DNA from: Candidatus Methanoperedens sp.
GTDB lineage: Archaea > Halobacteriota > Methanosarcinia > Methanosarcinales > Methanoperedenaceae
DNA: 64,000 nt
Reading direction: 5' to 3'
Assembly (NCBI GenBank): GCA_012026835.1
Contig: VEPN01000008.1
Span: 1 to 64,000 of the forward strand
Translations under genes and position numbers: made by a program
The notes under the pieces: generated by a model
Told to the model about the DNA's origin: nothing
Databases searched by the model: none
The model's input: the letters and a program-made list of their open reading frames with translations, nothing else
Shown here: positions 17,229-40,232 of the stretch, in pieces
How positions within the stretch are numbered: the first letter of the stretch is position 1
Layout: every line of letters starts with the position of its first letter

Positions 17229-19418
17229 TTACTTTCTCTGTCTCAGCACGAGGTATGCTACTGCAAGCAAGCCTGCGATTGCAAAGGCTAATTCAAAGCC
17301 TGGCTCTTTTGGTGTTGTTGCTGCCGGGACTGTTGTTGGTGTCTTCTCTGGTGGTTTCTCAGTAACTGTTAGTGTACCAGTGGTTGTTGGTTTTGCTGTT
17401 ACATTAACGGTCTGTTTGGGTGTTACGCCTGCACCTGTTGTTGGTGTTGGTGTTACATCTGCTCCGGAAATAACCATATCGACCTTGGGATAGAACCTCA
17501 GCACCGAGCTGTTATCTGCGGTTCTGAACTTGATGTTTCCAAGCAAGTCGTTTGTACCGTCAGATGACAGTGTTATTGCGCTGTCGCTCTTTAAGGTAAG
17601 TCCATAGGTTGCATCTTCTGTAGCATCAACCTTGAATATGCCGAACTTGTCGCCGCTCTTTACTTCAGTGACTGTCGATGAGATCAGCCATGTGTATTTG
17701 AGCTGCACCATGTCGGAGGTTGCACCTGCGAACACGCTGTCAACGTATGTTACAAAGATTGGTACGTTGGATTCGCCTGCAATGCTCTTTGCATAGTAGG
17801 TATAGACGCCCTGTGTGCCTGTGCCTGTGGAGGATGCTGCCTCGATAATCTTATCATCGAGTTTGTTGCCGTCCTTGCTCAGTACAAGCCATGCCTGTCT
17901 TGGGGATGCCTTGGCATCAATCGACTGGGCCGTGAGCGTATATCCGTCTCCCAGGTCCCAGGTCTCGCCTATTGCCAGGGTCTTCTTATCGGCTTCAGCC
18001 TGTTCCACAACTAACTTTGCAAGTTTGTTGTTCTTGCCGTTGATTCCTACGTATTTATCTGCAAGCCATCCTACGGTTGCATAGTAGCCTGCACCAGTCG
18101 AGACTGATGAGGTCAATCCGGAGTTCATACCGTACTCAACAGTCCTGTTCTTCTTTTCTGCTACTTTATACTGAACAGCCTGCTTTGATGTATTGTACCA
18201 TAATGTTTCCTTTGGAATGGTTCTTCCAGATATTGACAGTATCTTTAAGGTTTCTGAAGTCTTGTTCTCCTTCAGGTCATACCAGAATCCTGCGAAGTTG
18301 TCTGCATTCCAAGTAGATACTGTAAGGTCGGTAGATACGTTAGTTGGATTCGCTCCTTCGGTAACGTTCCTTGAAACCGCTCCACGGATTTCATAGGTAC
18401 CTGCGTTCGAGTAGGTCGCTATTGGATAGAACCTCAGCACCGAGCTGTTATCTGCGGTTCTGAACTTGATGTTTCCAAGCAAGTCGTTTGTACCGTCAGA
18501 TGACAGTGTTATTGCGCTGTCGCTCTTTAAGGTAAGTCCATAGGTTGCATCTTCTGTAGCATCAACCTTGAATATGCCGAACTTGTCGCCGCTCTTTACT
18601 TCAGTGACTGTCGATGAGATCAGCCATGTGTATTTGAGCTGCACCATGTCGGAGGTTGCACCTGCGAACACGCTGTCAACGTATGTTACAAAGATTGGTA
18701 CGTTGGATTCGCCTGCAATGCTCTTTGCATAGTAGGTATAGACGCCCTGTGTGCCTGTGCCTGTGGAGGATGCTGCCTCGATAATCTTATCATCGAGTTT
18801 GTTGCCGTCCTTGCTCAGTACAAGCCATGCCTGTCTTGGGGATGCCTTGGCATCGATCGACTGGGCTGTGAGCGTATATCCATCTCCCAGGTCCCAGGTC
18901 TCGCCTATTGCCAGGGTCTTCTTATCGGCTTCTGCCTGTTCCACAACTAACTTTGCAAGTTTGTTGTTCTTGCCGTTGATTCCTACGTATTTATCTGCAA
19001 GCCATCCTACTGTTGCATAGTAGGCGGCACCAGTCGAGACTGACGAGGTCAATCCGGAGTTCATACCGTACTCAACAGTCCTGTTCTTCTTTTCTGCTAC
19101 TTTATACTGAACAGCCTGCTTTGTCGTGTTGTACCACAGCTTTTCTTTTGCAACGGTTCTTCCAGATATGCCATCAGTCAGTATTTTTAATGTTTCTGAA
19201 GTCTTGTTTTCCTTCAGGTCATACCAGAATCCTGCAAAATTTGTGGCATTCCAAGTAGATATTGTCAGGTCATTTGCATTAGCTGGGGACGCTCCATCGG
19301 TAACGTTCCTTGACACTGTACCGCGAATCTCCACAGTTGAAATTTGCGCACTTACAGGTAATGCCACTATTAATAGCATTAACGCCGCTAATACAACTGC
19401 TGTTATTTTTTTACTCAT
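17229..19418 (-). CDS. S-layer tile protein with two near-identical domains and PGF anchor
   Basis: This is probably the main S-layer protein: 729 residues with a signal peptide (about 1-24, cleaved after PVSA), two tandem S-layer domains of the Methanosarcina type (about 28-340 and 341-650), a Thr/Pro-rich stalk, and a C-terminal PGF-type signal (KEPGFELAF, helix, RQRK) for archaeosortase-dependent lipid attachment. The two domains are almost identical at the DNA level over most of their length, with a 936-base offset. GGAGGT lies 8 bases before the ATG. A strong TATA/BRE element 210-230 bases upstream implies a leader of about 190 bases, and a hairpin terminator follows the stop. Related domains occur inside the giant cytochrome at 5.5-9.6 kb. 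Confidence 0.95.
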   Translation of the reverse strand: MSKKITAVVLAALMLLIVALPVSAQISTVEIRGTVSRNVTDGASPANANDLTISTWNATNFAGFWYDLKENKTSETLKILTDGISGRTVAKEKLWYNTTKQAVQYKVAEKKNRTVEYGMNSGLTSSVSTGAAYYATVGWLADKYVGINGKNNKLAKLVVEQAEADKKTLAIGETWDLGDGYTLTAQSIDAKASPRQAWLVLSKDGNKLDDKIIEAASSTGTGTQGVYTYYAKSIAGESNVPIFVTYVDSVFAGATSDMVQLKYTWLISSTVTEVKSGDKFGIFKVDATEDATYGLTLKSDSAITLSSDGTNDLLGNIKFRTADNSSVLRFYPIATYSNAGTYEIRGAVSRNVTEGANPTNVSTDLTVSTWNADNFAGFWYDLKENKTSETLKILSISGRTIPKETLWYNTSKQAVQYKVAEKKNRTVEYGMNSGLTSSVSTGAGYYATVGWLADKYVGINGKNNKLAKLVVEQAEADKKTLAIGETWDLGDGYTLTAQSIDAKASPRQAWLVLSKDGNKLDDKIIEAASSTGTGTQGVYTYYAKSIAGESNVPIFVTYVDSVFAGATSDMVQLKYTWLISSTVTEVKSGDKFGIFKVDATEDATYGLTLKSDSAITLSSDGTNDLLGNIKFRTADNSSVLRFYPKVDMVISGADVTPTPTTGAGVTPKQTVNVTAKPTTTGTLTVTEKPPEKTPTTVPAATTPKEPGFELAFAIAGLLAVAYLVLRQRK
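17488..18310. repeat. intragenic direct repeat, copy nearest the S-layer 3' end
   Basis: This stretch matches 18424-19246 with a constant 936-base offset. Over about 700 bases (17488-18180) I see only a handful of differences, for example ATCAATCG against ATCGATCG and GGGCCGTG against GGGCTGTG. Similarity falls off towards 18180-18310, which encodes the N-terminal part of each domain. Such low divergence, including silent sites, implies recent duplication or ongoing gene conversion. Confidence 0.9.
18424..19246. repeat. intragenic direct repeat, copy nearest the S-layer 5' end
   Basis: This is the partner of 17488-18310. It encodes the first S-layer domain. Differences from the other copy are concentrated at the end facing the signal peptide (TATTTTTAATG against TATCTTTAAGG, and a two-residue insertion ISGRT/DGISGRT). 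Confidence 0.9.
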
Positions 19419-21933: not shown

Positions 21934-22000
21934 GAACCTGATATGAACCATATGAACCTGATATGAACCTCATCGAACCCCTGAGAACCTCAAGCGAATA
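21934..22000. promoter_or_regulatory. helically phased GAACC repeat array (putative operator)
   Basis: GAACC occurs at 21934, 21945, 21954, 21965, 21975 and 21985, with GAATA at 21996, spaced 11, 9, 11, 10, 10 and 11 bases. All copies face the same way and lie on one face of the helix. The array ends next to a TATA box (CTTTATAATT, 22001-22010) of the ribbon-helix-helix gene. RHH repressors commonly bind such short phased repeats, so this is probably the autoregulatory operator. Confidence 0.65.
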
Positions 22001-22010
22001 CTTTATAATT
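22001..22010 (+). promoter_or_regulatory. TATA box of the RHH gene, probably leaderless transcript
   Basis: CTTTATAATT is centred about 28 bases before the ATG at 22034, so transcription should begin at or just before the start codon. No Shine-Dalgarno site is present, which fits a leaderless mRNA. Confidence 0.5.
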
Positions 22011-22033
22011 TTAAAGAACATATTCTGAACACA

Positions 22034-22390
22034 ATGAGAACCTTCTCTATCAGGCTCGATGAAGAGCTTTTTCAAAAACTGGAATCGGTAAGGGGAGAAA
22101 AACCAAGGGCCGATTATATAAGAGAGGTTCTCTTATTGAATTTTAAGGAACCTGATGCGAACCTCATCGAACCTCAGACGAACCTCAATAAAGAAATCGA
22201 TTCTTTAAAAGCCGAATTAACACACAAAGAGCAGATAATCAAAATAATGGATGATAGGGTAAAAGACCTACAGAATCATAATGGCTTTTTGATCAGTGAA
22301 TACAGCAGGTTAACAAGGTTGAACGAGCAATTGCTCTTACCACCTGCACCCATTGAACCTATTAAGAAATGGTGGCAGTTATGGAAGTGA
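22034..22390 (+). CDS. ribbon-helix-helix DNA-binding protein with coiled-coil tail
   Basis: The 118-residue protein begins with a ribbon-helix-helix motif (MRTFSIRLDEELFQKLE, then RADYIREVLLLNF, about residues 1-38). A linker EPDANLIEPQTNL, a coiled coil of about 45 residues (LNKEIDSLKAELTHKEQ to YSRLTRLNEQLL) and a short basic, Trp-rich end (KKWWQLWK) follow. RHH proteins dimerise and bind short direct or inverted repeats. The linker is itself encoded by GAACC repeats spaced 11, 10 and 11 bases (22148-22180), continuing the pattern upstream of the gene. It is probably a repressor of its own gene; its other targets are unknown. Confidence 0.82.
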   Translation: MRTFSIRLDEELFQKLESVRGEKPRADYIREVLLLNFKEPDANLIEPQTNLNKEIDSLKAELTHKEQIIKIMDDRVKDLQNHNGFLISEYSRLTRLNEQLLLPPAPIEPIKKWWQLWK

Positions 22391-22476: not shown

Positions 22477-22758
22477 TTAGGGATAAATCCGTGCCAGGAC
22501 GTTGACAAGTGGATGGACATGCCCTTGATTCTTATTCCTAAGGACGAACCCCGATTCTATTCTTGCCTTCCTTGATTCCTCTGCCCGGATAAGGGTGTTT
22601 CTGGCACTTATGGAATAGTATTCCTCTCCGCATTCGCAACATCTCACGTATGCCTGGGGACCCTTATTCACCAGGACATAAAAATAAAAATTTTTTAATT
22701 CAGTATTCCCGCATACTTCACAAGGAACAAATTCTTTTATTATTTCACTAACCTTCAT
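22477..22758 (-). CDS. small zinc-ribbon-type protein, unknown function
   Basis: The protein has about 93 residues. Two CxxC pairs (CEVCGN near residue 13 and CCECGEE near residue 40) should bind one zinc ion in a zinc-ribbon fold. The rest is basic and has no recognised catalytic motif. The start at 22758 (MKVSEIIKEF) is chosen over the frame beginning at 22770. A TATA-like GTTATATAGG about 35 bases upstream on the minus strand supports independent transcription. It could be a transcription or RNA-related adaptor; no family name can be given with confidence. Confidence 0.7.
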   Translation of the reverse strand: MKVSEIIKEFVPCEVCGNTELKNFYFYVLVNKGPQAYVRCCECGEEYYSISARNTLIRAEESRKARIESGFVLRNKNQGHVHPLVNVLARIYP

Positions 22759-22934
22759 GATTAACCCCAATATTAGAAGGCTGTATCAACCTATATAACT
22801 TTTCTACAGATGATTTATGGCATGGAAACGGACTTTCGCAGTTCCTATACACTCATTCGATGCCCTGGATTTTAGAATCCTGCATCGGTGGCTTTAAGTC
22901 GATATAGGATATATTTAACATGGGAGTTTGTAAA

Positions 22935-39239: not shown

Positions 39240-40232
39240 TTATGATATTCTGAATAGATTGCTTATGGGTCTATTCATGAAATTGTTGTTCATAGAGTTC
39301 TCACCATTTGCCAGATTTATACTCATGACAACAAAGCCAGTAGGTACATAGCCTGGCTTGAGCTGCTCAATTAGAATATATCTGCCTGATGGCAAATTAT
39401 CGAACATGTAAGAACCATCAGCACCTGTAGATGTTTCTTTCCTGATTACCTTGGTATCAGTTCCTGTTCCAACTATACCGATAAGACTGATAGTTACATC
39501 AGATATACCTTCTTCACCAGAATCTTGCTTTCCATTTCCATTGTCGTCACTTATCTTTGATCCTGAAATGCTACCGTTAGCGGTGGGTTGTGGTGTAGGT
39601 GTCGGTGTGGGTGTAACGGTCTGTGTAACTGTTGGAGTTGCCGTGACTGTTACTGTTGGAGTTGCCGTAACTGTTACTGTTGGAGTTACCGTTGGTGTGA
39701 CTGTTGGGGTTACCGTTGGTGTGACTGTTGGGGTTACCGTTGGTGTGACTGTTGGGGTTACCGTGACTGTTACTGTTGGAGTTGCTGTAACTGTTACTGT
39801 TGGTGTGACTGTTGGTGTGACTGTCGGTGTAACTGTTGGCGTAACTGTCGGTGTAACCGTTGGCGTAACTGTCGGTGTGGGTGATGGGGTTGGGGTAACT
39901 GACGGATGGTCGCTAGCATTTCCCGGGAAAGTCCGGGCATTGATTTCTTGGATGTTAGTAAAACCATCCCCGTCCGAATCTAAAGGCTCTATCGTAGTAA
40001 AGTTATGGTTGTTGCTTCCGAAGGCCGCACCATATGAATTCCTGTCAGTACTTCCTCCAATCCTGGGATCACCCTGGTGACAGAGGATACAAGTATCGAT
40101 CCTTGTGCCCACAGCAGAAGGATATGTTGTGTTGAAATTATTCAGATAGGAACTAAGTGCCGCCGCCTGCGGTACTCCCACCAGAGCTACAACTGTTAAC
40201 AGCAGCAGCCCTATTGTTAATTTTCGATTCAT
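39240..40232 (-). CDS. secreted monohaem protein with long Thr-Pro-Val linker and SdrD-B-like domain
   Basis: The 330 residues have a signal peptide (about 1-25), one c-type haem site CILCH (about 48-52), an EF-hand-like loop [13 protein letters not shown], a linker of about 100 residues made of [14 protein letters not shown] repeats (about 112-215), and a C-terminal Cna/SdrD-B-like beta domain ([39 protein letters not shown]). No membrane anchor is seen. It is probably a surface or shed protein, with haem at one end and an adhesive-type domain at the other. AGGAGG is 9 bases before the ATG. TATA TTTAAGTAAT at about 40300-40309 is its likely promoter. Confidence 0.88.
39588..39900. repeat. 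low-complexity tandem repeat coding the Thr-Pro-Val linker
   Basis: Units such as GTAACTGTTGGAGTTACC and variants repeat in 12- to 24-base periods. Codon choice for Thr, Val and Pro varies between units, so the repeat is partly diverged. Length change by slippage is likely between strains. Confidence 0.85.

Follow-up and report, generated by a model that had tools for sequence, protein, structure and literature searches.

Introduction

Several described systems place a DNA-binding protein on short direct repeats at the promoter of its own gene. As set out in the excerpts of the reports used here, RHH dimers of the ParR/parC systems of R1 and pB171 bind 10-11 bp direct repeats flanking the promoter, and the array doubles as operator (PMC5016525, PMC9426499). 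KfrA of the IncU plasmid RA3 is an autorepressor acting on five 9-bp direct repeats that overlap its promoter and is needed for plasmid stability (PMC7783346). In R388, the encoded protein StbA binds stbDRs, two sets of five 9-bp direct repeats with two-nucleotide gaps (an 11-bp period) around the promoter, and segregation by StbA takes place without its putative motor protein (PMC3098194). Repeats of another kind are known from Methanoperedens. The tandem repeats of Borgs lie in both intergenic and coding DNA and, in the excerpt of that report, are described as perfect copies, with units divisible by three in ORFs, that are virtually absent from host genomes (PMC9879509).

Here, we describe a gene of a Methanoperedens genome in which a short word recurs about once per helical turn through the promoter and again inside the coding sequence. 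By analogy, this layout would work like ParR/parC, KfrA of RA3 and StbA of R388, i.e., repeats of about one turn around a promoter, autorepression and often plasmid stability. It resembles type II partition (ParR/parC of R1, pB171 and pSK41) in having a phased array of ~10.5-bp direct repeats, the putative sites of the encoded protein, at the promoter of an RHH gene. However, here the repeats also extend into the gene body of the DNA-binding protein itself, which has a long coiled coil and a Trp-rich tail. No adjacent actin-like ParM was recognised near the gene or in the annotation of pGP6, a plasmid that carries a relative. The small N-terminal DNA-binding domain and long alpha-helical tail recall KfrA (RA3 IncU and IncP plasmids), but KfrA is bacterial, has an HTH and not an RHH domain, and its operator lies at the promoter, with no coding-region array described in the excerpt of the report. 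Pfam and NCBIfam scans of our protein gave no match to the KfrA-family HTH; it has an RHH domain instead. For StbA/stbDRs, no homology is established and the excerpt describes no coding-region sites. Since no ParM is nearby, the domain differs from that of KfrA and homology to StbA is not established, we do not place the protein in the ParR, KfrA or StbA families. The Borg repeats share the host genus and the spread over intergenic and coding DNA, but the units here are 10 or 11 nt (11, 10, 11 in the coding array) and imperfect, and a word rather than a block is repeated. In the parts of the open-access literature covered here, an operator running through its own coding sequence, with a word that changes between paralogues, is not described.

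Results and discussion

The gene and its protein

The window, the whole stretch of 64,000 nucleotides analysed, is a chromosomal contig (G000:C97). The features of the focal locus are as follows; L004 and L005 are its two orthologues.

21934..21989, + strand: promoter-distal array of six GAACC units, read from the sequence (four units in L004, five in L005)
21996..22000, + strand: degenerate unit GAATA at -38; GAACA at the equivalent place in both orthologues
22002..22010, + strand: TATA-like element TTTATAATT, read from the sequence, conserved in L004 and L005
22016..22031, + strand: two degenerate GAACA units at -18 and -7, spacing 11, conserved in both orthologues
22034..22390, + strand: gene for the 118-aa RHH-coiled coil-KKWWQLWK protein (ORF, profile match and AF2 model)
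22038..22042, + strand: GAACC at codons 2-3, 11 nt 3' of the preceding unit; same in L005, AAACC in L004
22148..22184, + strand: coding array of four GAACC units, spacing 11, 10 and 11, encoding the linker and the start of the coiled coil (residues about 39-51)
22364..22387, + strand: C-terminal Trp-rich tail KKWWQLWK, conserved across the family

In the AF2 monomer, an extended N-terminus is followed by helices at residues 10-20, 25-36 and 42-99. By this model, the protein is made of an RHH domain (the strand and the first two helices), a short linker, a coiled coil (42-99) and the tail KKWWQLWK. The family has the N-terminal beta-alpha-alpha fold, and we assign it to the RHH proteins because of its profile matches: the A1 profile (the Methanoperedens branch) matches NikR (1q5v, E=8.3e-5), the A2 profile (the second branch) matches CopG (1b01, E=4.1e-5) and Pfam RHH_1 is found in three A2 members (E=3.8e-5). 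When the focal protein was scanned alone, no RHH match was found in Pfam, and Pfam, NCBIfam and PHROGs together returned only coiled-coil noise and a weak match to a PHROG transcriptional repressor. Its top Foldseek matches in the PDB are RHH antitoxins, none of them significant. The profile matches thus indicate the same N-terminal DNA-binding fold as in NikR, CopG and other RHH autoregulators. The operators of CopG and NikR are short inverted repeats outside the coding sequence.

The neighbours of the gene include CofH and rubrerythrin. A small CxxC-type ORF (22477-22770, - strand) sits between the RHH gene and rubrerythrin; it is not found among the ORFs listed for genome G011, where a DedA-like membrane protein takes that place.

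A phased promoter array interrupted only by the TATA box

The first-pass annotation had noted six upstream and four internal GAACC units on one strand, and these are present exactly as described. The upstream units start at 21934, 21945, 21954, 21965, 21975 and 21985 (spacing 11, 9, 11, 10 and 10) and the internal ones at 22148, 22159, 22169 and 22180, all on the + strand. The promoter array is bigger than first noted, as GAATA at 21996, GAACA at 22016 and 22027 and GAACC at 22038 lie in register with it. Both orthologues retain the degenerate units and the codon-2 unit, L004 being the exception at codon 2. The single vacant slot of the phased series is the TATA box, centred ~28 nt 5' of the ATG.

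The pattern GAACCN{4,6}GAACC has eight matches in the 64-kb window, every one at this locus, compared with a mean of 0.22 and a maximum of 2 in shuffled controls. When the 107-nt intergenic stretch was shuffled by mononucleotides, a chain of six, counting any 5-mer, arose in 0/20,000 shuffles and a chain of four in 1/20,000. An Rfam search at the locus returned no family.

Inside the gene, the four-unit chain is uncommon given its protein, being reached in 183 of 200,000 synonymous re-codings. The total GAACC/GGTTC count of the gene was reached in none of 3,000 permutations that keep its exact codon usage. The translation across the coding array, EPDANLIEPQTNLN, is as first read. The accompanying argument, that the spacings are not multiples of three, holds for each spacing singly, with one qualification: a step of two units covers 21 nt (11+10), the length of a codon heptad, and over two units the reading frame is therefore kept.

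Conservation in orthologues and restriction to this gene

A genome-wide search found phased triple GAACC arrays to be private to this gene in its own 3.3-Mb genome. Among 31 Methanoperedens genomes, G000, G011 and G030 have them at this gene, always in the promoter as well as in the coding region. The sole other triple matches, in G002 and G015, are both 9-bp-spaced and are taken as protein-coding triplet repeats, and the reversed control pattern gave zero matches in the 31 genomes. A trans-regulon for GAACC, sought across the same 31 genomes, was not found, as triple arrays are confined to this gene bar these two matches.

L004 is 92% identical and has four upstream and four coding units, while L005 is 86% identical and has five and three. 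If the repeat is kept at the DNA level, as first proposed, its periodicity should outlast changes in the protein, and this is what the orthologues show: in pairwise comparisons, the coding cores have 0-1 mismatches per 20 bases and the spacers 2-5 per 20. In the linker of L004 a Leu is replaced by Pro, yet all four GAACC cores are retained, and no orthologue was seen that keeps the linker without the repeats. L004 lies in the same conserved chromosomal neighbourhood as the focal gene (CofH, rubrerythrin). L005 is found in a different one, near two proteins identified by eye as PIN-like and as a truncated, Orc1-like winged-helix protein, and has carried its promoter array along. The GAACC promoter and coding arrays also match in their spacers, with 26 identical nt between the L004 promoter and the L001 ORF. 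Because the spacers match too, part of the match in this clade looks like duplication, an explanation that is inapplicable to the GCACC or GATC branches described below.

The word changes between paralogues

Profile searches extended the family to Methanoperedens, Methanothrix-type genomes, one other class, plasmid pGP6 and viral contigs. The relatives have an RHH domain, a coiled coil and mostly a WWxFW-like tail. The pGP6 member, from the Methanothrix soehngenii plasmid, is gene MCON_RS14915 (WP_013729148.1). The plasmid and the viral contigs were reached solely via the more distant GATC and GCATAA branches, and neither tblastn of the focal protein against plasmid and phage collections nor the A1 profile against IMG/VR gave matches. 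Several branches have a word of their own, distinct from the others, which is found in the promoter and again in the ORF:

GATC: L206, L159, L160, L165, L168, L207, L208 and L212, including pGP6 and viral contigs
GCACC: L157, L140 and L170
GCATAA: L076, L093 and L209-L211
TGATAG/CTATCA: L171
GAATACA: L017
GAAATACA: L015b

On pGP6, the sole dense GATC cluster is the family gene with its promoter, 26 copies in 555 bp. A divergent 744-aa protein (L206 7642-9879, - strand), without a Pfam match and possibly a replication protein, adjoins this array.

The TGAAGA/TGAATA clade (L012, L013, L014 and L016) has a strong coding array, the most regular of all branches, with up to 13 words at 10/11 nt; its promoters have no forward copy of the coding word. 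In these four genes, 10-13 TGAAKA words follow each other in the coding region at a strict 10/11 nt. The focal genome has a second family member, L103 (G000:C27:54663-54983), whose words differ between promoter (GATTACAAAAT/GATTACATCCT, directly 5' of the ATG) and gene (CTGACTGCAAT/CTGACTGCAAC). The RHH-like L104 and L105 (MGEKKQLNVRIPLELQ branch) have many TAGCA words in the gene and AATAGC/GCTATT around the promoter, a pattern that is statistically weak.

The match between promoter and ORF was evaluated by re-pairing 120-nt promoters and ORFs of 52 genes in 20 clades, using k-mers of 5, 6 and 7. The clades were grouped by hand, on protein similarity and partly on the word; merging clades just lowers the number of independent pairs. 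None of 100,000 re-pairings of the 20 clades matched the k-mer sharing of the own pairs, for any of the three k. At k=7, the own partner comes first in both directions for GAACC, GATC, GCACC, GCATAA, TGATAG, GAATACA (L017), GAAATACA (L015b) and L172, the last with almost no absolute signal. About half of the 20 clades have no significant signal in this test, and promoter-ORF sharing is not significant in L007, L006, L010, L019, KKQ1, f5 and L002. The 59 ordinary genes of the window have no own-pair excess (own 1.55 vs swapped 1.57), compared with 10.1 for the focal gene. Each of the four G217 paralogues (GCATAA, GCACC, GATC and GATC) matches its own or the same-word gene and not the others, and because they sort by word, genome composition is not the cause. 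The first-pass proposal of a DNA-level repeat whose two arrays are bound by the RHH protein predicts such a joint change of word in promoter and ORF among paralogues that differ in their DNA-reading strand; this prediction is borne out, and the binding is what we infer from it.

The repeat is read as DNA

Three properties of the words point to the DNA level. The promoter words are phased, with a spacing coherence at 10.5 bp of 0.82 (0/20,000 random placements), and they occupy recurrent positions: GAAC[CA] and GATC sites are found at about the same places before the ATG (-7/-8, -18, -38 and -49), and GCACC sites at -7, -28, -49, -70 and -81. The coding words occur in two to three reading frames, with counts above the codon-permuted expectation in most members, in agreement with retention at the DNA level, and two thirds of their short spacings are not multiples of three. 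The GCACC and TGATAG words occur in both orientations, mostly 5' of the start. With words in both orientations in some branches, and with the majority of promoter units 5' of the likely transcription start, it is DNA and not RNA that is read, the reader being a DNA-binding protein.

Third positions in the GATC branch are 92% conserved inside words and 65% outside; after codon matching, third-position conservation inside words is not significant, and the argument thus rests on the pairing, phasing and frame evidence only. Two further candidates were rejected, RNA-level repeats in view of the many units 5' of the promoter and of the clades with words in both orientations, and restriction-modification avoidance because the words are gene-specific.

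A proposed autorepressor and the alternatives

By analogy with NikR and CopG, the putative DNA-facing strand residues are T,S,R for GAACC, T,T,R for the other GAA-words, R,Y,E for GATC and TGATAG, R,Y,P/S for GCACC and R,T,S for GCATAA. Because the word follows the paralogue and these residues differ by branch, the encoded RHH protein is the natural candidate binder. What the sequences show directly is a set of phased arrays, confined to this gene, and a match of promoter and coding words across diverged paralogues. From these we suggest that the RHH protein probably binds helically phased sites both in its promoter and within its gene and thereby represses itself, and that the array may also be a maintenance site on plasmids or viruses. 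Autorepression by the phased array would be the leading function, with a maintenance role as a serious rival.

We picture the gene product as a dimer of the RHH type, extended by a long coiled coil and ending in a Trp-rich tail. The site that it would recognise is the short word, here GAAC followed by C or A, once per DNA helical turn, which would place neighbouring dimers on one face of the DNA. The sites flank the TATA box on both sides and resume in the stretch coding for the flexible linker. Most likely, both arrays would be bound cooperatively, the coiled coils holding the complexes together, so that the promoter is shut and the level of the protein is tight and copy-dependent. Silencing of its own gene, one of the original suggestions, would be the expected outcome; looping between the arrays, another, is possible and would not be required. 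The coding sequence would then be under a double constraint, as protein and as operator. Plasmid and viral relatives may use this array as a partition-like maintenance site as well.

This last role could also be the main one, with autoregulation secondary, and we give this somewhat less than an even chance. In that case, the array would chiefly serve a plasmid or provirus as a centromere-like site for partition or DNA tethering: RHH dimers would coat the repeats, and the coiled coil and Trp tail would tether them to the membrane, the nucleoid or a host factor with no dedicated motor. The 10- and 11-bp direct repeats under an RHH protein are the ParR/parC layout as given in the excerpts (PMC9426499, PMC5016525), and KfrA of RA3, in its report's excerpt, is a coiled-coil autorepressor that has five 9-bp promoter repeats and is needed for plasmid stability (PMC7783346). 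Family members are found on pGP6 and viral contigs, and within one genome the paralogues differ in their words, as is expected of incompatibility groups. However, the focal gene and L004 share a conserved chromosomal neighbourhood, and neither next to the focal gene nor among the pGP6 features and proteins examined was a ParM, ParA or TubZ recognised; the scanned pGP6 neighbours gave no Pfam match. An activating role is improbable. The protein would stimulate its own synthesis from units 5' of BRE/TATA, where most units of the GAACC clade do lie, but this clade also has units at codon 2 and in the interval from TATA to ATG, and the arrays of L017, GCATAA and L015b lie no more than 45 nt from the ATG, a place at which a bound protein would obstruct initiation.

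Two alternatives do without binding by the encoded protein. The coding repeats could be a mere heptad repeat of the coiled-coil linker, from which unbound promoter copies were derived. Two units do make one heptad (21 nt), 21-nt heptad repeats are common in the family, and the 26 nt shared by the L004 promoter and the L001 ORF look like such a copy. We consider this unlikely, as the words occur in two to three frames above codon-permuted counts, the cores of L004 and L005 are retained while spacers drift, and re-pairing never reached the observed sharing (0/100,000). Moreover, the codon contexts of the scattered GCACC and GATC sites are unrelated, and in the promoters these sites keep fixed helical positions although the spacers around them differ. 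Still less probable are replication-origin iterons for another initiator, with the RHH gene beside or over the origin. The origin inside the lambda O gene is a precedent for an origin within a gene, the direct repeats are iteron-like, members occur on a plasmid and viral contigs, and the pGP6 array lies between the RHH gene and the divergent 744-aa orphan. Against this, the word tracks the RHH paralogue even within one genome, the sites have fixed positions relative to the RHH start codon, and the focal copy is chromosomal, beside CofH.

If autorepression through the phased array is correct, the locus would offer a clear example from nature of a coding sequence that doubles as an extended phased array for its own product, and this doubling would recur in several branches with different words. 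We lean, with a little less assurance, towards a general class of regulators from archaeal plasmids, viruses and chromosomes, in which the coding sequence of the DNA-binding protein forms part of its operator or centromere. The codons of the linker and coiled coil would be chosen to bring the word back with every helical turn. Replacement of the word would go together with that of the DNA-reading residues, giving mutually orthogonal specificities. Such a class would provide natural protein-word pairs for reading an RHH recognition code, and a family now labelled 'hypothetical protein' would gain a candidate function. From it, orthogonal repressors or maintenance systems are predicted for methanotrophic and methanogenic archaea, with plasmid pGP6 among the cases. 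A further consequence would be caution in reading the codon choice and apparent protein repeats of such genes, as both may reflect selection at the DNA level.

Other repeats in the window

Two further repeats were observed in the window. An S-layer-like protein (17229-19418, - strand) contains a large internal duplication of two near-identical halves and has a Thr/Pro-rich C-terminus. At 39623-39878, a 24-bp tandem repeat is present in about 10.7 copies.
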